The position numbers and the translations under genes were made by a program. Positions 28,031-60,867 of a stretch of DNA of 64,000 nt are shown here, piece after piece (within the stretch, counting starts at the first letter, position 1; each line of letters opens with the position of its first letter). This stretch comes from Natronorubrum tibetense GA33 (GTDB lineage Archaea > Halobacteriota > Halobacteria > Halobacteriales > Natrialbaceae), in contig NZ_KB913017.1 of the NCBI RefSeq assembly GCF_000383975.1, positions 999,133-1,063,132 on the forward strand, given 5' to 3'. The notes beneath the pieces are model-generated. The model searched no databases. It was not told the DNA's origin and saw nothing but the letters and a program-made list of their open reading frames with translations.

Positions 28031-28098
28031 ACTTGCCCCAGAGCGGATCCCGACTGCGCTGCTTGTCGAGGTACATGCTCAGCGCCTCGAGTTCGTCG
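28031..28098. repeat. Displaced copy of the infB 3' end (left boundary of the vapBC cassette)
   Basis: Sixty-eight bases that match 28853-28920 (the last 22 codons of infB) with two mismatches. Read on the minus strand it encodes DELEALSMYLDKQ and then RSRDPLWGK followed by TAG. The two base changes give Ser for Asn and Leu for Phe. It has no start and is a fragment. Similarity stops sharply at 28099. Confidence 0.9.
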
Positions 28099-30752: not shown

Positions 30753-30912
30753 TATTGTCGGACAGAACTATAGTAGCCACTGGAAGTCAGTGCACATCCG
30801 GTCGCACGACGGCTATGCGATCGGTGTGTAAACAGTTCCAGTTGTTACTATATTGTGAAAATTCGCCGCTCCCGTCCGGTGAATTCTCTTCATTGACTTC
30901 TGTCCGACAGTA
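30753..30912. mobile_element. Putative outer MITE with 15-bp terminal inverted repeats
   Basis: TATTGTCGGACAGAA at 30753-30767 and the reverse complement of TACTGTCGGACAGAA at 30898-30912 (14/15) bound a 160-bp non-coding unit. The 84-bp MITE copy (30769-30852) sits just inside the left end, which suggests nesting. No open frame lies inside; this accounts for most of the 30651-31029 gap. Confidence 0.5.
30769..30852 (+). mobile_element. TA-flanked 80-bp MITE, copy 1
   Basis: TATAGTAGCCACTG ... CAGTTGTTACTATA, 84 bp including a TA at each end. Arms pair along most of the length (TAGTAgCcACTGGAA with TTCCAGTTgTTACTA, then a CG-rich inner stem). Copies at 44720-44803 (inverted) and 50081-50164 have the same length. 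Lies about 180 bp upstream of the PRC-barrel gene. Confidence 0.85.
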
Positions 30913-30997
30913 TTACCGTGAGACGTGGGTCGAGAAGACTGCACACCGCGAGACGATTTCGTCCGATACGGACGACATCCGTCTGACGACCCCGTGG

Positions 30998-37537: not shown

Positions 37538-37612
37538 CGGTCGAACCGGCTCGGGTCCGCTCCGCGCAGGCGTCGCGGAACCGGCTCGGACAGCGGCCGC
37601 TGAGCGTCGTCT

Positions 37613-37987
37613 TCAGGCGCGACTCGGTCCGTCCTCGCTCTGGACGCGCCAGCTACCCTCGAGCCCGCAGGCCTCCCGCACCTCGTAGCTGATCTCGGTT
37701 TCGGCGTCGACTCGAGCGCCGCCGTCGACGCGTTCGACGCGCAGCGGGACGTCCAAGGTGTTGCCACAGCAGCCGACGCCGACGAACTCCTCCCAGACGT
37801 CGCCCGCTCGAGCCTCGTCTCGAGTCTTGCGCAGGAACGCGCGAAACGACGGCTTCTCGACCTGAAACCGTCCCCAGTCGGAGAGGTCCGCGGGATAGGA
37901 AATCACGACGCGCTCGGCGGTCCTCGTGCTCGACTGATCGGTCGGTTCGATCGATCGTCCCGAATTCTGACCTGATTCAGGCGTCAT
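37613..37987 (-). CDS. Hypothetical acidic protein (124 aa)
   Basis: Starts MTPESGQNSG; residues 30-124 include beta-rich segments (ERVVISYPADLSDWGRF, EEFVGVGCCGNTLDVPLRVE, ETEISYEVREACG). Longer in-frame starts at 38053 or 38158 would run into the secF promoter region on the other strand, so the short form is preferred. Divergent from secF. Family not recognised. Confidence 0.65.
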   Translation of the reverse strand: MTPESGQNSGRSIEPTDQSSTRTAERVVISYPADLSDWGRFQVEKPSFRAFLRKTRDEARAGDVWEEFVGVGCCGNTLDVPLRVERVDGGARVDAETEISYEVREACGLEGSWRVQSEDGPSRA

Positions 37988-38104
37988 AACTACCGAGACG
38001 GTCTCGAACGGCTTCAGCTCACCGCCCCGAGAGTAACGTTCTTCGAAAAACATGCTGTAGAAATTGAGAAGGCTTACTTTAGCTGACCCCCAGTGGTCGC
38101 GTAC

Positions 38105-38989
38105 ATGGGGTATTTCGACGTACCGGAGTTCGACTACACCCGGTACAGCAACCGCCAACTCGCGGCGGTGCCGCTAGCCGTTCTCGCGGTTGCATTGCTC
38201 GTCCTCACTGGCTCGTTTCTCGCGACCGGCGCGCCGGTACAGCTGGGGATGGACTTCGCCGGCGGCTCCGAGCTGACGGTCCAGACCACCTCCTCGGAGG
38301 AGGAGATCGCACAGGCGTTCAACGAGGAGCCCGAGTCGGTGCAGGCAGTTACCGCCCCCGACACGGAGAATCAGTACATCATCCAGTTCACCTCGACCGA
38401 CCTCTCGTCGCTGACCGAGCAAGCCGAGGCGAACCTAGCGCAGGATGGTGATACAGCCGTCGTCCAAGAGGAGCGGACGGTCTCGGAGACCTTCGGCGAA
38501 CAGACCCAGCAGACTGCCCTCCTGGGAATCGCCGTCGCGTTCCTCGGGATGAGCGTGCTCGCGTTCTTGCTCTTTCGGACGTTCGTCCCGTCGATCGCGA
38601 TCGTCCTCTCAGCGTTTTCGGACATCGTGATCCCGCTCGCGTTCATGACGGTCACCGGCATCTCGCTCTCGCTGGGGACCGTCGCCGCGCTGTTAATGTT
38701 GATCGGTTACTCGGTCGACTCGGACATCCTGTTGAACAACCAGATCCTGCGCCGGCAGGGTGACTTCTACGAGAGCACCCTTCAGGCGACACGGACGGGG
38801 GTCACGATGACGGTCACGTCGATGGCCGCGATGCTCGTGATGGGCATCTCCGCGTGGCTGTTCGGCGTCGAACTGCTGGCGTCGATCGGGATCATCCTCT
38901 TCGTTGGCCTCGCGGCCGACCTGATGAATACGTACATGTTAAATCTGAGCCTGCTTCGGTGGTACAAGTTCCACGGGGTGAGATCATAA
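38105..38989 (+). CDS. secF: Protein-export membrane protein SecF
   Basis: A 294-residue RND-superfamily accessory subunit of the Sec translocase. It has the N-terminal span, the external domain beginning GMDFAGGSELTVQ, and the conserved cluster of five spans with IGYSVDSDILLNNQILRR (catalytic-like Asp residues). With SecD it helps late export steps using ion gradients. The stop (TAA) shares one base with the secD ATG. Order F then D is archaeal. A GTG four codons upstream is an alternative start. Confidence 0.95.
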   Translation: MGYFDVPEFDYTRYSNRQLAAVPLAVLAVALLVLTGSFLATGAPVQLGMDFAGGSELTVQTTSSEEEIAQAFNEEPESVQAVTAPDTENQYIIQFTSTDLSSLTEQAEANLAQDGDTAVVQEERTVSETFGEQTQQTALLGIAVAFLGMSVLAFLLFRTFVPSIAIVLSAFSDIVIPLAFMTVTGISLSLGTVAALLMLIGYSVDSDILLNNQILRRQGDFYESTLQATRTGVTMTVTSMAAMLVMGISAWLFGVELLASIGIILFVGLAADLMNTYMLNLSLLRWYKFHGVRS

Positions 38990-40623
38990 TGGGGCCAATC
39001 AGCTTCGTCAAGGAGTACTGGCGGCTGATGCTGTTGCTCGTCTTCGTCAGCTTCGCCCTCGTCGCCCTCTTTATTCCCGGTGGCATCATGGCCGACGACA
39101 GCTACGTCGACGGCGAGAGCGTCAACGACAACCCGACGAACCTCGAGTACGGGCTCGGGCTCGACGGCGGGACCCGAATTAGCGCACCCGTCATCGGCAT
39201 GACCGCCGAGAATATCGACGCCGGGGCCGTCGACGAAGACGACGGCCAGGTCGACCGGGAACGGCTCAACGAGATCGAGTCGATCCTCTACGACAACGAC
39301 GAGTTCGAACTCGAGACCGGCGACGCACGCGTCAGCGTCGACGACGACGGCAACGTTCACGCCGAGGTGTTCACTGACGAAGTGACCGAAGAACAGTTCG
39401 CCGCAGCGCTCGCTGAAGCCGGCGTCGAGGTCGATCCCGACGAGGACATCCGCGACGGCGTGACCGCCGAGACGCGCACTCAGATGATCGAGACCATCCA
39501 GTCGAAGATCAACGAGGCGGGTCTCGACGGCGGTGACGCCTACGAGTCCGAACAGCTCGGCGGCCAGCACTACATCGTCACCGAAGTGCCGGACATGGAT
39601 CCCGACGAGCTCCGCGACCTGCTCTCCGAGCGCGGTATCGTCGAGGTCGTCGCCTACTACCCCGAAGACGATACGGGCAACCACACGAACGAGACGGTGC
39701 TCGAGGGCGGCGATATCGCGACGGTCGATCCGCCCCAGACCTCGGAGCGCGGCGGCGGATACGAAGTCCCGGTCGAAGTCTACAGCAACGCCGCACCCGA
39801 GTTTCAGAGCCGAATGAACGATCTCGGCTTCACCGGCGAAGGGCAGGGGATGTGTCAACTTAGCGGGGGCGAGGACGGAGTCAACTTCAACCACGACGGA
39901 CCGCAGTACTGCCTGCTCACGGTCGTCGACGGCGAGCCGATCGACGCCCACTCGATGGGGCAGAACCTCGCCGAACCGATGGCGGCCGAGACCTGGGCGA
40001 GCGATCCGTCGTTCGTCATGGGTGCGCCGGACCAACAACAGGCACAGGGCCTCTCGGTGAGCCTCCAGGCCGGTGCGATGCCCGCGCCGCTTGACTTCAG
40101 TCAGGAGCAGACGTACTCGCTGTCGCCCGCGCTCGCCGATCAGTTCAAGCTCTACTCGCTGATCATCGGCGGCCTGTCGGTGCTGACCGTCAGCGGGATG
40201 GTCTTCCTGCGCTACCGCGACGTCCGCGTCGCCTCGCCGATGATCCTCACCGCGATGGCGGAGGTGGTCATCCTCCTCGGCTTCGCGGCGCTGATACGTA
40301 TGCCGCTGGATCTCTCTCACGTCGCTGGCTTCATCGCCGTCGTCGGAACGGGGGTGGACGACCTCATCATCATCGCCGACGAGGTGATGGACGACGGCGA
40401 CGTCAGCTCACAGCGGGTGTTCGAGTCGCGGTTCCGCAAGGCGTTCTGGATCATCGGGGCCGCCGCCGCGACGACGATCATCGCGATGTCGCCGCTGGCC
40501 GTGTTGAGCCTCGGCGACCTGCGCGGGTTCGCGATCATCACCATCCTCGGCGTGCTGATCGGGGTCCTGATTACCCGTCCAGCCTACGGGGACATCCTCC
40601 AGCGGCTGCTGACGGACAAGTAG
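38989..40623 (+). CDS. secD: Protein-export membrane protein SecD
   Basis: A 544-residue RND protein, partner of SecF. Shown by the first span (LMLLLVFVSFALVALFIPGG), the motif YGLGLDGGTRIS, a long acidic exterior domain (about 60-360) that is expanded in halophiles, and six spans with VVGTGVDDLIIIADE and the related Asp residues. One-base overlap with secF suggests coupled translation. Export of Tat/Sec surface proteins, many of them in the 52-61 kb region, depends on such components. Confidence 0.95.
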   Translation: MGPISFVKEYWRLMLLLVFVSFALVALFIPGGIMADDSYVDGESVNDNPTNLEYGLGLDGGTRISAPVIGMTAENIDAGAVDEDDGQVDRERLNEIESILYDNDEFELETGDARVSVDDDGNVHAEVFTDEVTEEQFAAALAEAGVEVDPDEDIRDGVTAETRTQMIETIQSKINEAGLDGGDAYESEQLGGQHYIVTEVPDMDPDELRDLLSERGIVEVVAYYPEDDTGNHTNETVLEGGDIATVDPPQTSERGGGYEVPVEVYSNAAPEFQSRMNDLGFTGEGQGMCQLSGGEDGVNFNHDGPQYCLLTVVDGEPIDAHSMGQNLAEPMAAETWASDPSFVMGAPDQQQAQGLSVSLQAGAMPAPLDFSQEQTYSLSPALADQFKLYSLIIGGLSVLTVSGMVFLRYRDVRVASPMILTAMAEVVILLGFAALIRMPLDLSHVAGFIAVVGTGVDDLIIIADEVMDDGDVSSQRVFESRFRKAFWIIGAAAATTIIAMSPLAVLSLGDLRGFAIITILGVLIGVLITRPAYGDILQRLLTDK

Positions 40624-40655
40624 ACGGCGGGCGGTCGTTCGATCTTTTCGTTCGG

Positions 40656-40760
40656 TTATTCGTCTCGACAGCGCGGACACCAGTCGACGGTTCCGTCGTG
40701 ACCGTACGCACGTGCGAAGTCGAGAGAGACGGGGTCGTTACAGGTAGTGCAGATCGGCAT
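40656..40760 (-). CDS. 34-residue zinc-finger microprotein (DUF7563-like)
   Basis: The short frame encodes MPICTTCNDPVSLDF, then a basic/hydrophobic stretch and VDWCPRCRDE. Two CxxC pairs fit a single zinc knuckle. The same layout as the longer protein at 47189. Haloarchaea carry many such small zinc-finger proteins. Function unknown. Confidence 0.65.
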   Translation of the reverse strand: MPICTTCNDPVSLDFARAYGHDGTVDWCPRCRDE

Positions 40761-40887
40761 CTCGAGCACGGAAACTGGACGCCGTAACGGCAATGAGCTG
40801 GCAGCCTGCCATCGAAACCCGCTCGAGTCGGTCGCGAGACGAGCTAATAGTTCGCGTCAATCGAGGTGAGAGTTGGGACGTCCGCGA

Positions 40888-41583
40888 TCAGAACTGCTCG
40901 AGGCCCGTCTGTTCAGCCTCGGCCAGCAGGTCCTCACAGGTCGACCACGACTCGCGGGCGAACGGCGGGAGTGTGGCGTGCTCGTCGACGTAGGTCTCGA
41001 GAAATTCGCGCGTGTTCGGATCGCTCGGATAGCCGCTGCCGACGGGGCCGTACTCCTCGGCGATGGCGGCGACGTGGGCGTCGCGTTCGACCTTGGCGAC
41101 GATACTGGCCGCGCCGACGATCTTCGAGTCGTCGTCGGCCCCGTGGCGGGCGTCGATCTCGAGTGCATCCGTGGGCGCCTCGAGCGACGACACAGCAGAG
41201 CAGGCCTGGCTCACCCGTCGAGCGAACCGATCGGCGTCGGTGTCACAGGCGTCACACAGGCCCGCAATCGAGTCGGACTCGAGTGCATTGTCGTCGAGTC
41301 CCTCGAGGGCGCTGCCGATCGCCTCGGCGTGGGCCGCGACGGCCAGCGAGTTCATGTCCGTTTCTGGATCGTCGATTCGCGCCGTCGTAATCTCGGCGAC
41401 GCCGACGCGGATCCGATCGTCCTCGCGGATGGTGGCCGCCAGTTCCTCGCGGCGCTCGGGTGCGAGTCGCTTCGAGTCCGCGATGCCGTTCGGCAGGATC
41501 GTCGGGTCCTCGAGTGCGACGCTCGCGGCGAACATCGAGCCGAACACCGGTCCCTTGCCGGCTTCGTCGACGCCGAATTGCAT
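40888..41583 (-). CDS. rnhB: Ribonuclease HII
   Basis: A 231-residue RNase H2 that removes ribonucleotides and RNA primers from DNA. The motif GVDEAGKGPVFG (Asp6, Glu7) opens the protein; the later Asp in ARHGADDDSKIVGAASIVAKVERD completes the active site. ATG 41583 gives MQFGVDEAGKG exactly at the motif. Monocistronic. Confidence 0.95.
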   Translation of the reverse strand: MQFGVDEAGKGPVFGSMFAASVALEDPTILPNGIADSKRLAPERREELAATIREDDRIRVGVAEITTARIDDPETDMNSLAVAAHAEAIGSALEGLDDNALESDSIAGLCDACDTDADRFARRVSQACSAVSSLEAPTDALEIDARHGADDDSKIVGAASIVAKVERDAHVAAIAEEYGPVGSGYPSDPNTREFLETYVDEHATLPPFARESWSTCEDLLAEAEQTGLEQF

Positions 41584-41683
41584 GTCACGTGGATCAGCGG
41601 CCGGCCGCTAAACCGTTGCGTTGTCCGATCGTCGGTCAGTCAATCACGTACTACTATTAAGCTGGACGGAAGATTGACACGTT

Positions 41684-41986
41684 ATGAGTTCGAACCCGAG
41701 TCGGGTTCAGTTTCGCGCACCCGACGAACTAGTCGAGCGAGCGAATATTCTGGCGACAGCCCTCGAGACGGAGCGTGAGGACATCCTTGCTACTGCACTC
41801 CGAGAGTATCTCGACGACGCGGTATGCGACGACGAGATCGAGCAGGAGATCGCCGCTGCGTACTACGATGCGGCGATCACGGACGAGCAACTGGCTTCAC
41901 TCGTGGGACGTGCGCAAGCGACGAATTTTCGCGCCCTCAAACGACAGCTCAAGCCGTCGTACGTCGATGAAATCGCCGATTTGTAG
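41684..41986 (+). CDS. Orphan ribbon-helix-helix/antitoxin-like protein
   Basis: A 100-residue protein with a likely N-terminal RHH fold (VQFRAPDELVERANILATAL, then REDILATALREYLDD) and a C-terminal tail resembling UPF0175-type antitoxins. No toxin gene lies on either side (rnhB and pus10). Probably a stand-alone regulator or an antitoxin whose toxin was lost. Preceded by AT-rich sequence (ctactattaag). Confidence 0.6.
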   Translation: MSSNPSRVQFRAPDELVERANILATALETEREDILATALREYLDDAVCDDEIEQEIAAAYYDAAITDEQLASLVGRAQATNFRALKRQLKPSYVDEIADL

Positions 41987-42040
41987 CAACAATACCAGTT
42001 GGTGAGATCGAGATGCCTCGTCCTCGGTAAGAAAAAAGAG

Positions 42041-43414
42041 TTACGCGTCTACCGACGCCCTCTCCCCGTCATCACGCGGCTCGTCCCGGAAGTACGCCTC
42101 GAGTTCGAACGGTTCGTCCTCACCTTCGACGCTGAGCACGTCTAGCGCCGTCACCTCGGCGTCGGTCTCGAGCACTCCTGCCAGACTCGGCACCGTGCGG
42201 CCGTCGTCGCTGCTGACGAGTTCCTTGACGTAGAGGCCACCTTCGCCGTGGATTCGAACCTCAGCCTGCGTCGGCTCGAGGAGCTCTCCGTCCATCTCGT
42301 AGACGGTTCGCTCGCGCGTCAGCGCCGCTCGCCGGTGGTCGACCCGCTGGGGCGTGTCCTGCTCGACGGTGGCGCCGGTGAGTTCCTCGAGCGCGGCCTC
42401 GAAATCGCCCTCTTCGACGGGGTCAGCGAACTCGACATCAGCGCGATACTGCTTGCTCGCGTCGTGTTCCTTGACGCGCTCGACCATGTCGTAGGTCGCG
42501 AGTCGGAGGCCGTCGACCTCGACCGATCCCGCGGCGGCCTCGTTGATCTCTCGCTCGAGAGATTCGACGTCGACCTCCCGCGTGCTCGGCCGCTTGACCT
42601 CGAGGACGAACGGCCGGCCGTCCTCGAGCATTCGGGCGTCGACGTCCTCGCGGCCCGCGCCGTGGAAGGTTCCCTCGTCGCCGTCCATCGCCTCGACGAC
42701 GTGGGGGCGAACGACCTGTTCGACGCTCGTGTCGTACAGGTAGCCAGAGCCGCCGCAGTAGTCACAGGGCTCCTCGCCCGTGTCGGCTAACTGGATCCCG
42801 CTACCGCCACACTCTCTACAGGGCCACTCCGTCTGGGGAATATCGCGCTCGAGTTTGCGGTAGCGGCCGTAGACGAACGCGGGGTTAACCTGCACGTCGA
42901 CCGCGTGGCTCGTGACCGAGTCGGCGTCGAGGGCCTCGAAGGGATCGAACCCCTCGAGATCGACGATCGCGAGGACATCCGGGCGGTCGAAGTCCACGTC
43001 AGTCCCGGTTATATTTCCGATTCGAATGCCCACCTCGCGGTTTACTTCTCGTTTGAGCGACTCGCCGACGTCGGGTTCGAGCCCGGCGTCCTCCCGAAGG
43101 AGCCGTTCGTTCTCTTCGACCAGCGGCGGCACGCGGGAGCCGACCTGGTAGGTGTCGAAGTCGACGGTCTCGAGGGCGTCCGCGATCGTATTCGCGATCG
43201 CGTCGAACGTGCCGCAGTACCCCTCACAGACCCAGCAGTCGGCGGGGGCGACGGGATCGTAGTCCTCGTCGTCGTCCATCGCGATCGTCGTGCGCAGCGC
43301 CCGGCCGCGCTCGTCGTTCGTCAGTCCGAAACTCCGTGCGGCGAAGGGGCGACCGAGACAGGAGTCGCAGATGGCTCCCGTCTCAAGCAGCGCGCGGGCG
43401 TCGTCCGTGATCAT
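42041..43414 (-). CDS. pus10: tRNA pseudouridine(54/55) synthase Pus10
   Basis: A 457-residue archaeal enzyme that makes pseudouridine at tRNA positions 54 and 55. The N-terminal part has a zinc cluster (CDSCLGRPF; CWVCEGYCG) and a THUMP-like domain; the catalytic domain carries the Asp in GREDVDARMLEDGRPFVLEV and CRECGGSG zinc-type residues. TrmY (46225) then methylates pseudouridine 54 to m1-pseudouridine, so the two enzymes act in series. Confidence 0.93.
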   Translation of the reverse strand: MITDDARALLETGAICDSCLGRPFAARSFGLTNDERGRALRTTIAMDDDEDYDPVAPADCWVCEGYCGTFDAIANTIADALETVDFDTYQVGSRVPPLVEENERLLREDAGLEPDVGESLKREVNREVGIRIGNITGTDVDFDRPDVLAIVDLEGFDPFEALDADSVTSHAVDVQVNPAFVYGRYRKLERDIPQTEWPCRECGGSGIQLADTGEEPCDYCGGSGYLYDTSVEQVVRPHVVEAMDGDEGTFHGAGREDVDARMLEDGRPFVLEVKRPSTREVDVESLEREINEAAAGSVEVDGLRLATYDMVERVKEHDASKQYRADVEFADPVEEGDFEAALEELTGATVEQDTPQRVDHRRAALTRERTVYEMDGELLEPTQAEVRIHGEGGLYVKELVSSDDGRTVPSLAGVLETDAEVTALDVLSVEGEDEPFELEAYFRDEPRDDGERASVDA

Positions 43415-43595
43415 ATCCCGGAAATCGGGCGGCCGCGGGTAACACGTTTTCCCTTCGGCCGGCGCGTCACTCCAACTCTCGTCAGTAGGTGGCTCACTCC
43501 CAGCAACCGTCTCGTGTGCTGACTAGTTTACCACCACGACATACCAACACACGTGAGCCCGGAGGTTCAAATGGGTAGGGTCCTATCCCCCGGAC

Positions 43596-44702
43596 ATGAA
43601 CGATTCTGGACTGGATCGGCGCGGCTTTCTTTCGCTCTCCGCCGCCGGAGTCGCCGGCGTGTTCGCCGGGTGTGCGGAACCGCGGACCGAGAGCTCGATC
43701 GAGGGGAACTCCTCGAGCCAGATCGACCGGGACAATCTCGCCGAGGGCTCGACCTACACCGACATCTACGAGGCGGTCATCGACTCGGTCACGCAGGTTC
43801 AGGTTTCCGGCATCGAAGACCCGCTCACGGGTGAGGAAGGGCAGGGACAGGGCTCCGGGTTTCTCTTCGACGGCTCCTACGTGGTCACGAACGACCACGT
43901 CGTCGCCGACGGGAACGAGATCGATCTGCAGTACGTCAACGGCGACTGGACGAGTACGCGGTTGGTCGGCACCGACTTCTACACCGATCTGGCCGTGCTC
44001 GAGGCCGATCACGTCCCCGAGGCTGCGACACCGCTTTCGCTCTCCGAGGAGTACCCGGTGGTCGGTCAGGAGGTGCTCGCGATCGGCAACCCCTTCGGCC
44101 TCGAAGGGACGATGACGAAGGGGATCGTCAGCGGCGTCGATCGAACGCTCGACACGCGGGACCGGGACTTCTCCTACTCGAACGTGGTTCAGACCGACGC
44201 CGCGGTCAACCCCGGGAACAGCGGCGGTCCGCTCGTCGATCTCGACGGAAACGTCGTCGGCGTCATCAACGCCGGCGGCGGCGACAACATCGGCTTTGCG
44301 ATCTCGGCGGCGATGACGAGCCGCGTCGTACCGTCGCTCATCGAGACCGGCGAGTACGAACATCCCTACATGGGAATCGGGCTCGTGAGCGTCGATCGTC
44401 ACATCGCAGAGGCGAACGATCTCCCCGAAGCGACCGGGGTCATCGTCACTCACGTCGAACCCGGCGAGGCCGCTGACGGCGTGCTCGAGGAAGCCACGAT
44501 CCGCGAGGGGAGTGACCCGGTTCCCGTCGGCGGCGACGTCATCTTCGAGATCGACGGCGAACCGATTCCCGACCGTCACGCGCTCTCGACGTATCTCGAA
44601 CTCGAGACCAGTCCGGGCGAGACGATCGAGATCGACTGCTGGCGGGACGGCGCAGAGATCACGGAATCGCTGACGCTCGGCAGCCGTCCGCCGGCCCAGT
44701 GA
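43596..44702 (+). CDS. HtrA/DegP-like serine protease, Tat lipoprotein
   Basis: A 368-residue surface protease. Tat signal DRRGFLSLS and lipobox AGC (Cys26) anchor it outside the membrane. The trypsin-like domain has the full triad: His101 (TNDHVVA), Asp131 (TDLAVLE) and Ser209 (NPGNSGGP). A PDZ domain follows (about 255-365, YMGIGLVSVDRH... VHFEIDGEPI). Protein quality control at the cell surface is the likely role. Monocistronic. Confidence 0.94.
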   Translation: MNDSGLDRRGFLSLSAAGVAGVFAGCAEPRTESSIEGNSSSQIDRDNLAEGSTYTDIYEAVIDSVTQVQVSGIEDPLTGEEGQGQGSGFLFDGSYVVTNDHVVADGNEIDLQYVNGDWTSTRLVGTDFYTDLAVLEADHVPEAATPLSLSEEYPVVGQEVLAIGNPFGLEGTMTKGIVSGVDRTLDTRDRDFSYSNVVQTDAAVNPGNSGGPLVDLDGNVVGVINAGGGDNIGFAISAAMTSRVVPSLIETGEYEHPYMGIGLVSVDRHIAEANDLPEATGVIVTHVEPGEAADGVLEEATIREGSDPVPVGGDVIFEIDGEPIPDRHALSTYLELETSPGETIEIDCWRDGAEITESLTLGSRPPAQ

Positions 44703-44719
44703 AATCCGCCTCGTTGTGA

Positions 44720-44803
44720 TATAGTAACAACTGCAACGATTTACACACTGATCGCCGAACGGTCTGGCGATCAGGTGTGCAATGACTTGCAGTGGCTACT
44801 ATA
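44720..44803 (-). mobile_element. TA-flanked 80-bp MITE, copy 2 (inverted)
   Basis: 84 bp with TATAGTAACAACTG at the left and CAGTGGCTACTATA at the right; minus-strand orientation relative to copies 1 and 3. At the variable stem position it has C/G (ACTGCAA with TTGCAGT) where copy 1 has G/C and copy 3 A/T. It is the only feature in the gap 44703-45091. Confidence 0.85.
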
Positions 44804-45091
44804 GTTCGGCAACGCTTCGCCTCGAGTTCACCACGGTTGCAGCGCTCGAGCGTCGTGAGACGGTTCGAAAGCACCCCCTACACCGACGGCAGTGCCGGCA
44901 ACAGCTGACGGGGCGGTCGTAATTCCGCCGTACACGTTAGCGACGGTTTCGTTCTCGGTTTCGTGAATGAACGATCTGAACTGCGGCGGAACTGAACGCT
45001 ATCGTCACTGTTCAACCGATTAGCAGGTCGATAACAATAGGATACTCTCGGGTAGCCGTATCCAGAGCGATTCCCCCATCGCCTGCCACGC

Positions 45092-45295
45092 ATGAACACG
45101 GACATCAACACTGACGACGACGCGCAGTCACCGCCCGACGAACCGACGACGGAACTGGATCACGTGACCGTCGAGAATGACGACGCGCCGAACGAGTGTG
45201 CGATCTTCCCCCGAGAGGCGAGCGAAGAGGCCCTGATGACCAACTGGATCTCCGCCCACGAAGACTCGTTCGTCGCAGTGGAGTCGATGCGCTGA
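45092..45295 (+). CDS. DUF7511 domain protein (67 aa)
   Basis: A small acidic protein whose second half, ENDDAPNECAIFPREA then LMTNWISAHEDSFVAVESMR, matches my memory of the haloarchaeal DUF7511 consensus. Function unknown. It starts a pair with the 64-residue membrane protein 4 bp downstream. Confidence 0.78.
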   Translation: MNTDINTDDDAQSPPDEPTTELDHVTVENDDAPNECAIFPREASEEALMTNWISAHEDSFVAVESMR

Positions 45296-45299
45296 TGCC

Positions 45300-45494
45300 A
45301 TGAGCGTTCACCTTGGCCACGCGATCACCGCTGCTGGATTCTGGCTCGGCACCCTCCTGCCGGTCGCCTATCTTCCGGTCTTTCTCGCCGGCATCGACTC
45401 GGTCGCCACGCTGTCGATCCTCGTCGGACTCCTCACGATCCACGCGCTCGCCCTGATCGTCGGCCACGAGTATCCCAGTTCGCGGACCCGCTGA
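45300..45494 (+). CDS. Small two-span membrane protein (64 aa)
   Basis: Two hydrophobic helices (AGFWLGTLLPVAYLPVFLAG and LSILVGLLTIHALALIVG). Follows the DUF7511 gene after 4 bp, so probably co-expressed. No function known. Confidence 0.65.
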   Translation: MSVHLGHAITAAGFWLGTLLPVAYLPVFLAGIDSVATLSILVGLLTIHALALIVGHEYPSSRTR

Positions 45495-45680
45495 CGGCCT
45501 CCCGTGCCAACGGCGAGGTCTCCTTTCAGCCCTCCCCACCCGTTCGTGGTCGCTCGAGTCCGAACTCGGCTGCGTCGCGCCGACGGACTGTTCGACGCAG
45601 ACGCACGCGGCATCCCGTCTCGCGGACTGGTCAGCGAATCCGATGAAAGAAATACCCTACTCGGTGTGGGAGTGACGCGT

Positions 45681-45839
45681 ATGCGTACCCGCTGTCCGCT
45701 CTGTACCCGAGACGTCCCGCGCGAAAAGCAAGTCTGGTGTACGTGTGGATCCGCGATGGATTCGGGCTGTTACGACGCCCACGAGGATTGGTGTGCCAAA
45801 CGGGGGACCGACGCCTGGGTTGGCGCGCTCGAACTGTAG
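45681..45839 (+). CDS. Small zinc-finger protein (52 aa)
   Basis: Starts MRTRCPLCTRDV, then CTCGSAMDSGCYDAHEDWC. Eight Cys/His residues give one or two zinc sites like those of the haloarchaeal zinc-finger microproteins. ATG 45681 is the first in-frame start at the zinc motif; the upstream extension is not coding-like. Confidence 0.68.
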   Translation: MRTRCPLCTRDVPREKQVWCTCGSAMDSGCYDAHEDWCAKRGTDAWVGALEL

Positions 45840-45847
45840 TTAGCCGT

Positions 45848-46021
45848 CTACCACAGCTGAGCTCGCGGGGTGTCGCAGCTGTCACAGATCGCCGCTCGGT
45901 TCTCCTTGTAGACGCCGAGCTCGAGTTCGCCGTCGTCGCAGTCGGGACAGGGACGCCCCTCGAGAATCGCGAGTAACGTCGGGTCGTCGTCGCTCGTCCG
46001 TGACGACTGTGATTTCGCCAT
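45848..46021 (-). CDS. HVO_A0556-like zinc-finger protein (57 aa)
   Basis: GRPCPDCDDGELELGVYKEN, then AAICDSCDTPRAQLW. The CPxC...CxxC layout and ending match the haloarchaeal zinc-finger family named for HVO_A0556, as I recall it. Start MAKSQSS lies 8 bp from the convergent 45681 gene region. Function unknown. Confidence 0.78.
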   Translation of the reverse strand: MAKSQSSRTSDDDPTLLAILEGRPCPDCDDGELELGVYKENRAAICDSCDTPRAQLW

Positions 46022-46224
46022 ATACGCAGTACAGAGCCGAGACACTGGAAACAGTTGGCCATGCCTATGCAATGTCAACTACCCCCAAATCGAGACGCGA
46101 GATGGATCGAAACCGACCGAACTACCTCGTCTTCCACTCGATTTCGTGGTACGAGTTCCCTAAACAGCACTGGCGGCCGCCAGAAAACCGTGGCGGCTAT
46201 CCCGTCGGTCGTCGTTCCTCCGAT

Positions 46225-46821
46225 ATGCGCCAATTCGTACTCCTCGGTCACGAGGTGCCGACCGAGCCCGATTTCTCGCTTGACGACCTCGCGGGCGGCG
46301 CCGGTCGACTCGACGCCCTCTGTCGCTCGATCACCGCGTCGTTCGTCACCTCCCACGGGATTCGCGAAGACGTTCGCACGCATCTCGTGGTGCAGGACGA
46401 ACTCACGATCACCTTCGATGGGAGCGAACTTCGCCGGCTGAACCCCGACGAGCGGAGCACTGCGGCACTGGTTCGAAAGGCCATCGAACACCGCGACGAG
46501 GCCATCGGCGCGCTGCCTGCCGAACCCAGCCCGGGGATCGAGGTGTATCGGCGCGGGTTCGAGGAGACGCTCGAGACGGTTGCGACGGAGGGAACCGTCG
46601 TACAGTTACACGAGGATGGTGAGGCGATGGTCGACGTGGGCGGACTCGAGAATCCGGTGTTCGTGCTCTCCGATCATCAGGACTTTACCGACGACGAAGA
46701 GCGGGTGCTCGAGGATGTCGTCGACCAGCGGCTTCGACTCGGGCCGGAGCTGTTGCACGCGGATCAGGCGATCACGGTGGCCCATCACTATCTGGACACG
46801 GCCGGCTACGAACAGTTCTGA
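46225..46821 (+). CDS. trmY: tRNA (pseudouridine54-N1)-methyltransferase
   Basis: A 198-residue SPOUT enzyme that methylates pseudouridine 54 made by Pus10. The start MRQFVLLGHEVPTEPDFSL is the family N-terminus, and the C-terminal knot region ENPVFVLSDHQDFTDDEE and RLRLGPELLHADQAIT provides the SAM-binding loop. The upstream in-frame extension (75 codons) is rejected. It is separated from pus10 by about 3 kb. Confidence 0.93.
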   Translation: MRQFVLLGHEVPTEPDFSLDDLAGGAGRLDALCRSITASFVTSHGIREDVRTHLVVQDELTITFDGSELRRLNPDERSTAALVRKAIEHRDEAIGALPAEPSPGIEVYRRGFEETLETVATEGTVVQLHEDGEAMVDVGGLENPVFVLSDHQDFTDDEERVLEDVVDQRLRLGPELLHADQAITVAHHYLDTAGYEQF

Positions 46822-46903
46822 GCGTGAGCGGAAATCGCCACCCGCAGGCCCGATCGGCGGTTTCGGAACCGTTAAACGATCCGGCGTCCACAATTGTAGA
46901 TGC

Positions 46904-46976
46904 GGGCCGGTGGGGTAGCTTGGTATCCTTCGGCCTTCGGGTGGCCGTAACCGCAGTTCGAATCTGCGCCGGCCCA
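46904..46976 (+). tRNA. tRNA-Pro (anticodon CGG)
   Basis: Acceptor GGGCCGG pairs with CCGGCCC; anticodon stem CGGCC/GGCCG surrounds loop TTCGGGT with CGG in the middle; T-arm CGCAG TTCGAAT CTGCG; discriminator A. Seventy-three nucleotides, no intron. A degenerate copy of its 3' end lies at 47094-47121, and an accessory region follows, so this tRNA probably served as an integration site. Confidence 0.93.
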
Positions 46977-46978
46977 CT

Positions 46979-47092
46979 ATCCATCCCGCAACGCAAAACC
47001 GTGAGCGACAGCGAACGGTCTGCGTTGCGGGGAAATGGATCCAAGCAGATTCGAAGTAGACCAGACGCGCGTAGCGAAGCGAGCACGTCTGG
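46979..47092. repeat. Two hairpin units next to tRNA-Pro
   Basis: First: 46979-47040, stems ATCCAT/ATGGAT, CCGCAACGCA/TGCGTTGCGG and inner ACCGT/ACGGT around gagcgacagcga. Second: CCAGACG (47061-47067) with CGTCTGG (47086-47092) around a gtagcgaagcgag loop. Between them GCAGATTCGAA (47045-47055) is an inverted scrap of the tRNA T-arm. A run of at least ten C follows near 47131. Non-coding. Confidence 0.6.
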
Positions 47093-47093
47093 G

Positions 47094-47121
47094 CGTAGTT
47101 CGTAATCTGCGCCGTCCCACT
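47094..47121 (+). other. Degenerate copy of the tRNA-Pro 3' end (attachment-site remnant)
   Basis: CGTAGTTCGTAATCTGCG then CCGTCCCACT matches the tRNA segment from the T-arm to the discriminator with two substitutions and one inserted base. Direct orientation, 118 bp from the tRNA end. Typical of an att site left by an integrated element. Confidence 0.55.
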
Positions 47122-47188
47122 TGATATAAACCCCCCCCCCTTTCCCGCATCTCCTGACAGTTAGCGGCCGGTTTGGGGGGTGGTCTGC

Positions 47189-47422
47189 ATGACGGTCGCT
47201 CCATGGCCGTCGACCGATACCTCGACGACGTGCGAACACTGCGGAGCGTACGTTTCGGAGCGCTTCTGCCGCGTCTACGGTGACAACAATGACCGAGCCC
47301 ACCGCTGTGGAGACTGTGATTCGTATCGACGACTGACCCGCGGGTCCGCAGCTGGTGTCGACGTTGGGATTCCCGATCCGGAGACGGCCGTCGGTCACCA
47401 CGGAGGTGAGCCCGATGTCTGA
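47189..47422 (+). CDS. Zinc-finger protein of halovirus/plasmid type (DUF7563-like)
   Basis: A 77-residue protein: TCEHCGAYVSERFCRVYGDN, then HRCGDCDSYRRLTRG. Two CxxC pairs form a zinc finger of the kind common in haloviral and plasmid genomes. First gene of the island behind tRNA-Pro. The G-rich sequence before the ATG may act as a ribosome-binding site. The next gene overlaps it by 8 bp. Confidence 0.65.
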   Translation: MTVAPWPSTDTSTTCEHCGAYVSERFCRVYGDNNDRAHRCGDCDSYRRLTRGSAAGVDVGIPDPETAVGHHGGEPDV

Positions 47423-47806
47423 GTTCGTCCCGTCGAGCAGTCTGTACGATGTCGAGAGTCGGACACCCATAGCCCATCCAGCCCATCAGGCGACCGATGC
47501 CGACGTTCACCGGGCGCTCGGAGAGCGAGAAATTCGGGCCGATAGTGGACACTCCTCGAGCGGTAGTGCACAGAAAGCGGAAGGGGTGGGATTTGAACGC
47601 CACGTGGCACGAGCGCCGCCGCAGATCCCGATGGGATCACGGTGCTCTTCCGCTGAGCGACCCTTCCGTACGCAGACTATCTCCGGGGCCCCGATTAGTA
47701 ACGGGCTGCCTAGAAGACTGGAAGGGGGTCTTTTTTCTCAAGGCGGATTCGCCGAATACGACCGATCACTACCCACGAATACTGAACAAAAGGAGGGTGA
47801 TTCGCG

Positions 47807-47810
<4 letters not shown>
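47415..47810 (+). CDS. Truncated or degraded island gene
   Basis: ATG 47415 is preceded by a textbook Shine-Dalgarno GGAGGTGA (47402-47409), unusual in haloarchaea. The first 50 residues (MSEFVPSSSLYDVESRTPI, TDADVHRALGEREIRA) look coding, but the frame then runs across the tRNA-like relic on the other strand and becomes Arg/Pro-rich. The original 3' part is probably lost. Function unknown. Confidence 0.4.
47578..47667 (-). other. tRNA-like relic
   Basis: On the minus strand: acceptor GGAAGGG pairs perfectly with CCCTTCC; D-arm GCTC-AGCGGAA-GAGC; T-arm GTGG-C-G TTCAAAT CCCAC with an extra C bulged in the stem. The 90-nt middle cannot form a normal anticodon arm; instead GATCCC/GGGATC makes a tight hairpin. 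It is best read as a decayed or virus-type tRNA rather than a working one. Confidence 0.45.
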
Positions 47811-48473
<663 letters not shown>

Positions 48474-48520
48474 CTATAGGTTCACCAAATTTTATACCAG
48501 GGCGGGTTGCGAGCCGTGGT

Positions 48521-48715
48521 ATGTTCTTGAACAAACTGCGACAGCTCGATGGGAATTCTGCCGGGGTTACGATGCCGAAAGACGACCTTCGGCTCGAGGG
48601 ACTGATCGACGAGAACGGCGAATTGGTTGAGAGCCACCACGTCCACATCCAGCGGGTCGACGATGGGCAGTGGACGCTGGAACTTGTTGAAGGAATTGAT
48701 ACGCAGCTAAAATAA
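48521..48715 (+). CDS. AbrB-like small island protein (64 aa)
   Basis: MFLNKLRQLDGNSAGVTMPK followed by acidic beta-rich sequence. The opening resembles the swapped-hairpin AbrB fold (a basic strand followed by GVTMPKDDL). TTTATA at 48491-48496 is 25-30 nt before the ATG. Similar 60-70 residue proteins occur in haloviruses and plasmids. Probable DNA-binding regulator. Confidence 0.65.
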   Translation: MFLNKLRQLDGNSAGVTMPKDDLRLEGLIDENGELVESHHVHIQRVDDGQWTLELVEGIDTQLK

Positions 48716-48731
48716 ATGAGACGGCTATCTG

Positions 48732-49238
48732 TTAGCTGTCACTGAAGTCCCAATCTACGCTCCCAATCACACTCTCTGAGTTCCCATCGATAGCGACGAT
48801 ATTGACGCTTCCTTCCTCAGCGAGGACATCATCGTCGTCTGGGCTAGGTGCACTAGCTTCTGTTTCTTCTAGTGTATGAGTTGTTCCGACTCCACCGAAG
48901 TAGAGTTCTACTTCGCCGCTATCTGTAGCATTATTAGCACTATCGTGATCGATGATATCCTCTCCATCACCCTCGTCACCACGGACGACAAACCGTTCAG
49001 CATCACCTACCTCTGTGACAGTAAAGGTGATTTCACCCTCTGAATTGCTGATATCGGTACTGACAGCTGCGTTCACAGATCCATCGCCCATATCGTCACC
49101 GATGTCCAGCACGAATGCTGCGATCACTGCCGCGAGAATCACAGTTATCGCGACCATGAGAATGACGCCTATAACTGGACTTACTGCTCGCTCTTCTTCT
49201 GACCCGACAAGTTTACCACGAATTATTTTCGCATCCAT
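48732..49238 (-). CDS. Type IV pilin (archaeal Pilin_N/DUF1628 type), copy 1
   Basis: A 168-residue pre-pilin. Basic head, then [20 protein letters not shown] with the class III signal-peptidase site before AVSP, and a hydrophobic assembly helix to about residue 45. The rest is an acidic beta-rich head domain. It has lower GC and a different codon mix from housekeeping neighbours. The hydrophobic part is nearly identical to the pilin at 49250, so the two are a tandem duplication. Likely surface adhesion. Confidence 0.9.
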
Positions 49239-49249
49239 GCTTTTCCTCC

Positions 49250-49705
49250 TCAGAACTCCCACTCGACGCTTCCAACAACACTTTCCGAGTTTCCATCAAT
49301 TGCAACAATGTTGGCTTCTCCACCACTGCTGCTGAGTGCGTCCGCATCACCTGTCCCATCAGAACCACTATGATAAAGTGAATGACTTGATCCAACAGTG
49401 AGATCATCAAATTCAAGATCTGCTTCCCCACTGTCGATGTCGTCCCCACGAACAACGAATTCTTCTGCGCCACCATCATCTTCAAGCGTAAAGGTGATTG
49501 CGGCATCACTTTGACTCGTATCAGTGCTGATGGCCGCATTTACTGGACCATCGCCCATATCATCACCAATGTCCAGCACGAACGCCGCGATCACAGCTGC
49601 GAGAATAACCGTAATTGCGACCATGAGAATTACACCGATAACCGGACTCACTGCCCGTTCGTCTTCGCTTCCGATCAGCTTCTGTCTGTATTTGGTCAAA
49701 TCCAT
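49250..49705 (-). CDS. Type IV pilin, copy 2
   Basis: A 151-residue pre-pilin, first gene of the pair. Head [20 protein letters not shown] with the PibD-type cleavage site, then the same helix as copy 1. The C-terminal ends are also alike ([20 protein letters not shown] versus VIGSVDWDF). The middle parts diverge. Eleven base pairs separate it from copy 1, so one transcript is expected. Confidence 0.9.
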
Positions 49706-49880
49706 TGTTTGTCACGCACCGCGAGAACGGTTGGAAAGCTTATTCTCGGCGGTCCGATACCACCGTGTGACGCTCAGGGGGATTGGGTTTGCACAACCAT
49801 CTCGTGCGTCATCCTTCCTGCCGTTCGGTTTTGGTGCTGATAGCAACCAGCCCACTGTGCCCATATATATCTAGAGGTTA

Positions 49881-50000
49881 GTGAATCTCCCAGAGACTGA
49901 TAGCGGTTTCATCAATGATAATCAGCGGCTGATAGAATCGCTCCAACGTACCCTTGAAACATCTGAAGCAGCCGATATCGGGCGTTTCAGATATAGGTGA
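49881..50000 (+). pseudogene. Possible gene remnant (39 codons)
   Basis: A GTG-started frame encoding NLPETDSGFINDNQRLIESL and then QRTLETSEAADIGRF. It resembles the first half of small haloarchaeal helical proteins that continue further; here TGA cuts it short. The other sequence in the gap 49706-50035 is AT-rich with no clear gene. Low certainty. Confidence 0.3.
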
Positions 50001-50035
50001 TAATGCTTTTGGCAGGGTAGCGACACCACAGCAGT

Positions 50036-50555
50036 ATGACCGAATCGGATCTCGTAACCGCGCGCGACCTCGCGCGCACCTATAGTAGCCACTGAAAGTC
50101 AATGCACACCTGATCGCACGACAGCTGTGCGATCAGTGTGTAAATAGTTTCAGTTGTTACTATACAACGGCGGTACGTACAGCGACCCCTGGGCCGCCGT
50201 TCTGGACTACCAAGCTGTCATGCGATACGCGAGCCACCACCCGAACTAGGGCTCCGGCGCGATCTCGAGCGCACTGGAAATGCCTCGAGGACGGATTCGC
50301 AGCTGGGTCGACGGAAACGAAAAGCCGGATGCCGTTCGCGGGATCGAAGCCGCCTGCGAGTACGGGTGGCTCGATGCGACCTACAGAGATCGGGAGTTCA
50401 TGGCCCTGAACACGCTCGTTGCGAACGTCTTTTCGGGCGGCTCGATTGTGACGGAGAATTTCGTTCCATTGTTCGCGCTGAACCACGCCGACCACCGCTC
50501 ACACGTGAACGACGCGCTCGAGGAGAGCCGTTCGAACCGACAGCAGTGCCAGTAG
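50036..50555 (+). pseudogene. Broken gene interrupted by a MITE and a nonsense codon
   Basis: The frame starts MTESDLVTARDLARTY and is cut at codon 16 by MITE copy 3. Removing the 80-bp element plus one TA restores the frame exactly: it continues NGGTYSDPWAAVLDYQAVM, meets TAG (50252-50254 region), and continues GSGAISSALEMPRGRIRSW for another 85 codons. The protein resembles a haloarchaeal family with an HTH-like segment (RGRIRSWVDGNEKPDAVRG). The 3' end is also shortened. Function unknown. Confidence 0.75.
50081..50164 (+). mobile_element. TA-flanked 80-bp MITE, copy 3 (inside a gene)
   Basis: TATAGTAGCCACTGAAA ... TTTCAGTTGTTACTATA. The host gene reads through when one TA plus 80 bp are deleted, so the TA is a target-site duplication and the element is 80 bp (50083-50162). 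TA duplication is the mark of IS630/Tc1-mariner-type transposition. No transposase of that family is in this window. Confidence 0.88.
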
Positions 50556-51163
50556 CGGTACTGAGGTCAGGAGTGTCAGGGGTTTCCGCCCTGACACGGA
50601 GCAGCGATGCGAGCTGCTCTTTGGAATTCGGACTCAGTTGGTTATTCTGGTGGTTTCGGGTGCCTCTGAGTCCGTTTCGAGTGACGAAGTAAACGATAAT
50701 AAATGCGCTAGGGGTTGGCAATAACAGCCGGAAACTGAGCGCGAGAGCGGTGAGTTTCGATGCGCTAACTGGTCGACCGGTCCGAGAGGCCCGTAGAGGC
50801 GACTATTCGGAGTCTCGAGGGTACCTCGACATCGGCCCACGCACCTCGAGCAGCACTGACCAGTCAGCCCACGGTACTACTGCAACTGACGACTACTAGT
50901 CAATAGCCGAGTCGAACGATACGTTATCAGAGGCACGCTCCGGCCCGGCTACCGATTCGGATCCGTTGGACCCGGCCATCCACGGATTCGATGCTAACGG
51001 CGGGCGATCACTCCGAATCGACCGCGAGGCCACTGCGTCTCGATGCGCTCGCGGACGGCAGCACCGAGCATCGCTCAATTCTGTCAACGTCGACTCACCA
51101 TACACTTGACACCGCTTACGGCTACCAGAAGAGTCTTTGCGGACTCATGGAATTATCTCGAGT
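50556..51163. other. Gene-poor stretch
   Basis: About 600 bp without a credible gene. A perfect 9-bp hairpin GTGTCAGGG/CCCTGACAC lies at 50573-50597, just after the broken gene. A minus-strand frame ending at about 50896 has an acidic C-terminus but no proper N-terminus. The rest probably consists of decayed accessory sequence. Confidence 0.4.
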
Positions 51164-51643
51164 ATGTCTGCCGACGGACTCGACGAGATCGACTACGGAA
51201 TCCTTCATCTTCTCCAACAGAACGCCCGAGCCACGACGCCGGTCGATATGGCCGATCAGCTGCCGGTAACTGACACGACGATTCGAAATCGGATCGAGCG
51301 GTTGGAAGAGAAGGGGGTCATCGAGGGCTATGTACCGATCATCGACTACGAAGCGGCGGGCTTTCCGATGCGGCTCCAGTTTTCCTGTACCGCGGCGACG
51401 AACAAGCGCGAGGAGATCGCTGAACGGGTGCTCGAACTTCCCAACGTCGTGAAGGTGGACGAGATGTTGAGCGCGAGAGAGAACATTCGCGCGCTCGCCG
51501 TCGCGAGTACCACCGAGGAGGTCAACGATATCGCCGCTCGACTGGACGAACTGCCGCTGACGATCGAACGAGAGAGTTTGCTCCGGAAGGAGCGCATTCG
51601 ACCGTTCAACCACTTCGGTGAGCACGTCGTCCCGAACGAGTGA
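51164..51643 (+). CDS. Lrp/AsnC-family regulator
   Basis: A 159-residue regulator: winged helix IDYGILHLLQQNARATTPVDMADQ and TDTTIRNRIERLEEKGVIEGY, then a RAM-like C-terminal domain (RLQFSCTAATNKREEIAERV) and a short extra tail. It is only distantly similar to the Lrp at 12659. No divergent metabolic gene is present, so the target is unknown. Confidence 0.85.
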   Translation: MSADGLDEIDYGILHLLQQNARATTPVDMADQLPVTDTTIRNRIERLEEKGVIEGYVPIIDYEAAGFPMRLQFSCTAATNKREEIAERVLELPNVVKVDEMLSARENIRALAVASTTEEVNDIAARLDELPLTIERESLLRKERIRPFNHFGEHVVPNE

Positions 51644-51983
51644 TGGTCACGAGATAAGATACAGGCATCTTTCTTCGAAAACTCAAACACTTATAAGTTG
51701 TAGGTTTGGCTCCAAATAGATTTGGGAGAAGTGTTTTTGTATCGGCGAATAAGTTGCTGACGATGACTGTCGTAGCGGAGCGAAGTGTCGACACCGATTC
51801 CGGAGACTCGGCTCGAACCCGTGCCTCACCGAACCGACGAACCGACGGCCGCAAAGATCCTCGTTGGCCGTCGAATACCGCATCGGCAGCATGCGGCAGT
51901 CAATATAACGCGCGGCAATCGCCACGCCGAGTGGCACCTGCGCCGGGAGCACAGTCGAGTGTCCGATCGACGATCACCGACCG
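51644..51983. other. Gap with one doubtful frame
   Basis: 340 bp. AT-rich from 51650 to 51760 (tataagttgtaggtttggctccaaatagattt). A frame 51763-51987 (MTVVAERSVDTDSGDSART) overlaps the next ATG by 4 bp, which hints at a real small gene, but its codon pattern is mixed and the protein is Arg/Ser-rich. Not called as a gene. Confidence 0.35.
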
Positions 51984-52190
51984 ATGAGTGAGGAACGCTA
52001 TCGATGCATCTGTCATACGTGCGAATCGGAGCGACTGATCGACGGTCTCGAGAACGCACAGGAAGTGTTCAACGAACACGCCGATATGGCCCACGAGGTC
52101 GAACTGCTGAAACGCCAGTCGCGCTGTCGCGATTCGAACTGGCCAGTCGAACCCGAATCCGGGAACGACAGGTCGACTACTGACAGATAG
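51984..52190 (+). CDS. Small Cys-containing protein (68 aa)
   Basis: MSEERYRCICHTCESERLID, then helix ENAQEVFNEHADMAHEVELL and a basic tail. Cys-x-Cys-x2-Cys plus two His in the helix could bind zinc. Such short proteins are common in haloarchaea. Function unknown. Confidence 0.6.
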   Translation: MSEERYRCICHTCESERLIDGLENAQEVFNEHADMAHEVELLKRQSRCRDSNWPVEPESGNDRSTTDR

Positions 52191-52250
52191 TATCGCCTCA
52201 CAGACAATCAAACGCTACTCGGGAGCGGGGCCGGTCACGACGAACGCGTG

Positions 52251-52658
52251 TTAACTGGTGTCCCGTGCATCGACGATTTCGTCGACGCGGATCCGCAAGA
52301 GGACGCGCTCTGTTTCGATTTCCATCGGATACTCGTCTTCGTCCATATACCGCCGCGTGAGTTCGTCGATGTGGGCTCGTGCACCCTCAGTCGTCACCTC
52401 GTCGACCTCACCGATTATCGACAATCGCCGGTAGGGGTTGTCCGGGTCGATCATACTGACCCCGACGGACGGATCGGCCTCGAGATTGCGCACTTTTCGC
52501 CGGCCGCGTTCGCTATTGATCAGGAGCCGCCCGTCGTCGCCGTCGTAATCGATCCAGACCGGTGTGACGTGTGGGTCCTGCTCGTCGCTCAGCGTCGCGA
52601 TGTGCGCGTACGTTTGCTTCTCGAACAGGTCCTGAAACGAGTCGGGAATGGATTCCAT
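52251..52658 (-). CDS. PPOX-class F420-dependent oxidoreductase-like protein
   Basis: A 135-residue split-barrel flavin/F420-binding protein: IPDSFQDLFEKQTYAHIATL at the start, HVTPVWIDYDGDDGRLLINS, then RKVRNLEADPSVGVSMIDPD and YRRLSIIGEVDEV. This is the layout of the PPOX F420-type family, in which reduced F420 reduces small substrates. Substrate unknown. Confidence 0.88.
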   Translation of the reverse strand: MESIPDSFQDLFEKQTYAHIATLSDEQDPHVTPVWIDYDGDDGRLLINSERGRRKVRNLEADPSVGVSMIDPDNPYRRLSIIGEVDEVTTEGARAHIDELTRRYMDEDEYPMEIETERVLLRIRVDEIVDARDTS

Positions 52659-52852
52659 AGGTACGATTCAGCCGTCGGTGACTTCCCTCTGGTGCCTACA
52701 GCAGAAGGTGACTGCCGGACTCGAGGAGCGCGGGTCGACGAGCGGAAGCCACCCATCGGCGCTGAAACTGCGGGGCGCGAGCGAGGCTCGTAGCGGTTGA
52801 CCACGCGAGTGTCGGCTATCGACTTATTCCCGTCGGGAAAGAGACTGTTGCT

Positions 52853-59535: not shown

Positions 59536-60867
59536 ATGACTCTATCACGACGTTCGACAATCAAGGCGATCGGTATAGTTGGTGGCGGTTCGGCACTGAG
59601 CGGAACTGCACTTGCCGTCAACGAGCACGAAGATGACGAGCGAGACGTTGACGAGGAACCGGACGACGGAGAGATGGGAGCGATTCGCGTCGGTCACTTC
59701 TCACCGGACGCTCCGAACGTCGACGTCTACGTCGACGATCAGCAGATCCTCACGGACGTCGCGTACGACGAACTCTCGCCGTATCTGGAGATCGCGCCCG
59801 GGACGTACACACTGACGATCACGGCCGCCGGCGACGACGAACCGGTTTACGAGGAGAACATCCCGGTCGACACGGACTACTATACGGCCGCGGCGATCGG
59901 CGAAATCGAAGGCGACGACGGCGACGACGAAGTTGAAGGGGCGGAAACCGCCGCGTCAGTCCAGGACGACGATTACGAGGACGACGATTACGAGGACGTC
60001 GATGACGAGGACGACGATTACGAGGACGTCGATGACGAGGACGACGATTACGAGGACGTCGATGACGACTACGACGATGCCGATGACGACCTCGAAGAGG
60101 AAGCGGTTGACGACGAAGACGACGAAGACGGACCCGGAACGTTCGACGTCCTCCTGCTGTTCGACCGAGAAGCGGTCGAACAGGAGGGCACGTCACAGCT
60201 TCGACTGGTCCACGCCTCCCCCGACGCGCCCACGCTCGACATCACGGACGACCAGGGACTGCCGCTCTACGAGGATGTCGGCTTCGGCGAGCCGTCGGGA
60301 TACGTGTCGTTCGAGCCCGGAGAGCAGACGCTCGAGTTGTTCGAGGCCGGCGAGAACGAGTTCGACGCGGAGTTCGACGAAGACGACCTCGAGGACCAAG
60401 AAGACGAGGAAACCGAAGAGCCGGAAACCGCCGCGTCCATCCAGGACGACGAGGACGATGACCTCGATCTGGATGACGAGGACGACGATCTCGACGAAGA
60501 CGAGGTCATCGATCAGGCTGAACCCCTTTCCTCCGTCGATGTCGACCTCGAAGAGGACACGGTGTATACGGCGTTCGCGATCGGCTACTTCGAGGAGAGA
60601 GACGACCTCGACGACGACCGACCATTCGAGATTCGCGTCGCCATTGACGGAGAAGAAGAGGAGGAGGACGACCACGACGAGGCTCCCGACGAAGCCGAGC
60701 CGGACGAAGACGAAGTCGACAACGGTGAGGACGACTACGAGGACGACCCAGATGTCGATGACGACGACGATTACGAGGATGACGACGACGACGGATACGA
60801 CGATTACGATGATGACGACGGGTACGACGACGAAGAGGAAGAAGAGCCGATGACAGCCGACGACTGA
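59536..60867 (+). CDS. DUF4397-domain secreted protein with acidic repeats
   Basis: A 443-residue protein with a Tat-type signal (SRRSTIKAIGIVGGGSALSG). Residues 50-125 are the first DUF4397 domain (AIRVGHFSPDAPNVDVYVDD); 135-200 are an acidic linker with repeated DDYEDVDDED units; 220-285 the second domain (TSQLRLVHASPDAPTLDI), then another acidic linker and the last beta segment. The tail is almost only Asp, Glu and Tyr. Both domains are joined by duplicated DNA around AETAAS(V/I)QDD. A cell-surface role is likely. Confidence 0.85.
   Translation: MTLSRRSTIKAIGIVGGGSALSGTALAVNEHEDDERDVDEEPDDGEMGAIRVGHFSPDAPNVDVYVDDQQILTDVAYDELSPYLEIAPGTYTLTITAAGDDEPVYEENIPVDTDYYTAAAIGEIEGDDGDDEVEGAETAASVQDDDYEDDDYEDVDDEDDDYEDVDDEDDDYEDVDDDYDDADDDLEEEAVDDEDDEDGPGTFDVLLLFDREAVEQEGTSQLRLVHASPDAPTLDITDDQGLPLYEDVGFGEPSGYVSFEPGEQTLELFEAGENEFDAEFDEDDLEDQEDEETEEPETAASIQDDEDDDLDLDDEDDDLDEDEVIDQAEPLSSVDVDLEEDTVYTAFAIGYFEERDDLDDDRPFEIRVAIDGEEEEEDDHDEAPDEAEPDEDEVDNGEDDYEDDPDVDDDDDYEDDDDDGYDDYDDDDGYDDEEEEEPMTADD
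59981..60060. repeat. 30-bp tandem repeat in the DUF4397 gene
   Basis: The unit gatgacgaggacgacgatta + cgaggacgtc occurs twice at 60001-60060 with a partial copy (59981-60000) before it. It encodes DDEDDDYEDV repeats and should be prone to slippage. Confidence 0.75.

Follow-up and report, generated by a model that had tools for sequence, protein, structure and literature searches.

Stowaway-like MITEs of the Tc1-mariner / IS630 superfamily are small foldback elements that duplicate a TA target. MITEs have been described from Haloquadratum walsbyi, where their ends match known transposons, and the same work describes SMRs as lacking target duplication (PMC3119063). Among viral gene arrangements, that of the haloarchaeal betapleolipovirus SNJ2 (Natrinema virus SNJ2, NC_074646) pairs gp09 with a divergent gp10 encoding a Pilin_N protein.

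The locus considered here lies in a stretch of 64,000 nucleotides of Natronorubrum tibetense GA33, termed the window, whose numbering is used below unless a genome handle is given (G000 for the source genome, G005 for N. texcoconense). Within it, a MITE-type element has very probably inserted at a TA, with duplication of that TA, in a truncated gene, and it is confirmed that copy 3 of the element (Table 1) disrupts a gene fragment, in a way that is ordinary for MITEs. The site provides a natural record of the element's start, end and TA target, for a family found in many haloarchaea.

Limits of the element and duplication of its target

A reading made from the letters of the window, hereafter the sequence-only reading, had claimed that an 80-bp element interrupts a reading frame and that removing 82 bp, the element plus one TA, restores it. 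This is borne out: the undeleted frame hits stop codons within copy 3, and the joined sequence ACC TAC AAC GGC GGT is formed by any 82-bp deletion register from 50080-50161 through 50085-50166. The span given for this interruption, 50036-50555, stands as to the interruption itself, but its right limit is no natural gene end: homology to the gene gives out near 50530, and adjacent DNA supplies the last ~8 codons.

The element limits and the TA duplication claimed by the same reading are supported by empty sites, for which it had proposed comparison with an intact homologue. An intact paralogue of 276 aa (L061), encoded in the same genome at about 3.985 Mb (G000:C1:3984767-3985177, minus strand), reads CGCGCACC TA TGACGGCGG, with a single TA and alignable sequence on both sides, so that CGCGCACC TA TGACGG in the paralogue corresponds to CGCGCACC TA (80 bp) TA CAACGG in the window. 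Nucleotide identity to the paralogue is 91% over 49554-50083 and 88% over 50167-50530, where it ends. Ten homologues from related genomes are likewise continuous across the insertion junction, the alignment on which the reading had staked its claim. The empty site of copy 3 is paralogous and not that of a sister strain, which counts against the insertion as main explanation. A second, independent empty site is available for copy 1, which stands in the window as AAC TA (80 bp) TA TTG; in G005 the host repeat lies in the opposite orientation and reads AACTAGTG, with one TA. A single TA is thus found at two independent empty sites.

Table 1. Features of the window that bear on the interrupted gene and its element.
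Feature	Position	Strand	Evidence or remark
MITE copy 1	30771..30850	+	lies inside another palindromic repeat; 88% identity to copy 3; one-TA empty site in G005
MITE copy 2	44722..44801	-	present at matching position in G005
tRNA-Pro (CGG)	46904..46977	+	ARAGORN; directly adjoins inserted segment
Lineage-specific inserted segment	46977..50530		DUF7563 protein, pilin genes, gene fragment; absent from G005
Type IV pilin gene, divergent from broken gene	49250..49705	-	Pfam Pilin_N, E 1.7e-17
5' part of interrupted gene	50036..50082	+	codons 1-15 and two bases of codon 16; 91% nt identity to paralogue
Left TA of target duplication	50081..50082		paralogous empty site has single TA
MITE copy 3	50083..50162	+	80 bp, non-coding, near-complete foldback; identical to copy at G000:C1:1710360-1710443
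Left terminal inverted repeat TAGTAGCCACTG	50083..50094	+	sequence; at copy ends genome-wide
Internal palindrome (hairpin stem), compensatory changes between copies	50103..50142	+	base-pair covariation
Right terminal inverted repeat (TAGTAACAACTG on minus strand)	50151..50162	-	sequence; at copy ends genome-wide
Right TA of target duplication	50163..50164		paralogous empty site has single TA
Remaining gene fragment	50163..50530	+	to codon ~137 of 276; 88% nt identity to paralogue
TAG nonsense codon for AAG (Lys44)	50247..50249	+	lysine in paralogue and all ten aligned homologues

The inserted segment and the order of events

The 3.55-kb segment that carries the gene fragment (46977-50530) is absent from N. 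texcoconense, whose matches span window positions 37593-46976 and 50531-52725; since the counterparts of 46976 and 50531 are separated by 74 bp there, the segment is an insertion relative to that genome. It starts at the 3' end of tRNA-Pro and represents the remnant of a mobile element or else a duplicated block. A search for a second att site gave no clear candidate, the best repeats matching at 18/30 bases, one of them at 47091. Partly similar sequence stands beside the same tRNA-Pro(CGG) in the relatives G004 and G009.

The fragment ends at the right edge of the inserted segment, and the alignment shows a 5' piece of the gene, cut by that edge at codon ~137 of 276. A separate change has turned Lys44 into TAG, and this in-frame stop, noticed in the sequence-only reading, is indeed present. 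That reading also held that the gene went on decaying after the MITE had entered. On this point the evidence leans the other way, given the truncation at the segment edge, a relaxed branch and a MITE identical to another copy.

The window gene and its paralogue differ by 10/8/34 changes at the three codon positions, and because the differences are mainly at third positions, both copies were functional for most of their separation. With substitutions polarised against ten homologues, nonsynonymous changes number 14 on the window branch and 1 on the paralogue branch, and synonymous changes 13 and 10. A simple estimate dates the loss of constraint to about 0.042 substitutions per site before the present (95% 0.018-0.069). 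Under a rough model, a MITE in place since then would have stayed unchanged with a probability of about 0.06 if one copy is counted and of 0.009 if two are. Its identity to another copy, together with this low probability if it were old, implies that the MITE probably came late. Coding constraint on the gene had probably gone by the time the MITE entered, in which case the insertion is likely to have had almost no fitness effect and something else to have killed the gene.

The converse order, in which the MITE killed an intact gene and the TAG and the loss of the 3' part came afterwards, is unlikely, if still to be reckoned with. It can appeal to the concentration of divergence at third positions, which indicates a working window copy through most of its past, and to the fact that the three lesions are not directly datable. 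Set against it are the 14 nonsynonymous changes of the window branch, compared with no change at all between this MITE and another copy, the rough probabilities just given, which apply if both began together, and the coincidence of the truncation with the edge of the inserted segment. The favoured order, in which constraint was lost first, is drawn from a single 80-bp element and 27 polarised substitutions and is not proven. Chance could mislead, as could gene conversion between MITE copies, by which the insertion would appear more recent than it is, and the truncation could be a later deletion, since the right edge lacks 74 bp that G005 has. The case cautions that finding a mobile element within a pseudogene does not make it the agent that broke the gene; here an intact paralogue remains in the genome.

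An 80-bp foldback family and its movement

The element is short, has no transposase coding capacity, carries the terminal inverted repeats TAGTAGCCACTG / TAGTAACAACTG and is dispersed in many copies. In the source genome (4.93 Mb, five contigs) the family gave 44 matches (best E 7e-38), far beyond chance, and occupies at least 40 places, 40 candidates having been scored of the 44 matches. It was found in 10/10 Natronorubrum genomes searched, in many Natrialbaceae genomes, and on plasmids of Natrinema, Haloarcula, Halomicrobium and others. Among typical full copies sampled in other genomes, 95/97 are exactly 80 bp long, and the targets show a C-TA-G flank bias, with C before the TA in 59% and G after it in 52%. 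As copy 2 is shared with G005 and the site of copy 1 is empty there, the copies differ in age.

Some members exceed this length, at 117 bp to about 416 bp, and have other hairpin repeats in the loop; four of these (L062, L063, L064 and L065; 137-319 bp) hold nested GCGGTTCGGAGCG...GAACCGCG hairpin repeats. Several further repeats were observed in the window. The palindromic family GTCGGACAGAA...TTCTGTCCGAC that hosts copy 1 (30757-30930) has 97% copies at G000:C1:3065059 and G005:C2:714446, two 68-bp direct repeats (28031-28098 and 28853-28920) are 97% identical and lie 822 bp apart, and an imperfect repeat array with 15-bp spacing occupies 59899-60123, extending in part to 60849.

The foldback comprises 31 base pairs across the element, with 96.2% of cells paired among 91 distinct clean copies, a set that was picked for having conserved tips and a TA at each side, and in which related copies are not independent. 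Double changes are seen in 93 cells, where shuffling gave 25 on average and 38 at most. This covariation points to maintained pairing, short of proving function.

Insertion at a TA with one extra TA, conserved ends and a foldback is directly visible at these sites. An 80-bp non-autonomous inverted-repeat element entered the TA in codon 16 of the gp09-like gene, duplicating it as the empty-site comparison shows, and we infer that it was most likely moved by cut-and-paste with a 2-bp stagger, through a trans-acting transposase that works on the ~12-bp ends.

Matching ends were sought around candidate transposases, genome-wide pairing being built from search matches, and no autonomous partner appeared in the places searched, which also counts against the main explanation. 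None of 30 IS630-type DDE_3 loci of the genus was bracketed by matching MITE ends, nor were the DDE_Tnp_1 loci of the source genome, and no DDE_Tnp_1_2 loci were found. Solo end matches in the source genome with 3 kb of flank gave no transposon partner, and 120 stretches in named genomes gave no autonomous partner with MITE ends. Viral contigs yielded no MITE-like or transposon-length end pair, the one result there being a 219-bp chance pair in two low-GC contigs; phage records gave no match. The open papers searched did not contain the end sequence, and the paper on haloarchaeal MITEs among them deals with Haloquadratum. For want of a partner in these places, assignment to IS630/Tc1-mariner is not made.

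A rather improbable alternative describes a very abundant 80-bp foldback family of Natrialbaceae and other haloarchaea, its transposase not yet linked, in which the hairpin itself, and not the ends alone, may aid movement, for example through a folded single-stranded or cruciform intermediate; the near-fixed length and co-varying arms are the reason for supposing that the hairpin may be needed. Insertion of an 82-bp unit at a TA-containing site without target duplication is very unlikely. It would formally leave an identical sequence at both empty sites, so that sequence alone cannot separate the two readings; yet it is the 80-bp unit about which the inverted repeats show symmetry, TA lies outside each end of copies in many contexts, and TA duplication is both simpler and typical of known transposases.

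The interrupted gene and its relatives

The broken gene has no Pfam or NCBIfam match above cut-off, which might suggest an accidental frame and no real gene, but that reading is refuted by homologues, with matches in 33/61 genomes, a match of the intact paralogue to phrog_14115 (E 1.9e-125) and its 46.5% identity to gp09 of SNJ2, and by the third-position bias. Pilin genes occupy the equivalent place beside the window gene, and the same pilin sequences usually accompany this gene at related loci of the genus. The module of pilin and divergent gp09-like gene (here 48732-50530) is common to SNJ2 and to many chromosomal and plasmid sites of haloarchaea. Other broken gp09-like copies, with in-frame stops or frame breaks, are present at G002:C1:1434747-1435128 and G028:C44:2035-2417. 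Rep-Arvir, the SNJ2 replication protein (PMC13107129), was considered as an identity for the broken gene and rejected, being ORF19 of SNJ2 and not gp09.

Comparison with known systems

The arrangement at this locus resembles the gp09-gp10 module of SNJ2 in that a gp09 relative stands divergent from a Pilin_N gene. In contrast to the viral module, it is chromosomal, includes several pilin genes and has a truncated gp09-like copy.

The element resembles the MITEs of Haloquadratum walsbyi (PMC3119063) in being short and non-coding, with terminal inverted repeats, many copies and target duplication; it differs from them in that no transposon with these ends was found here and in being almost wholly one foldback. 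With SMR-A (PMC3119063) it shares a very short length and terminal inverted repeats unlinked to a known transposon, whereas it has TA on both sides of what is a single-TA site, unlike the absence of duplication described for SMRs.

Small size, a foldback and duplication of a TA target liken it to Stowaway-like MITEs, although the IS630-type (DDE_3) loci of the genus are without matching end pairs. The element is a further case within an already known element type.
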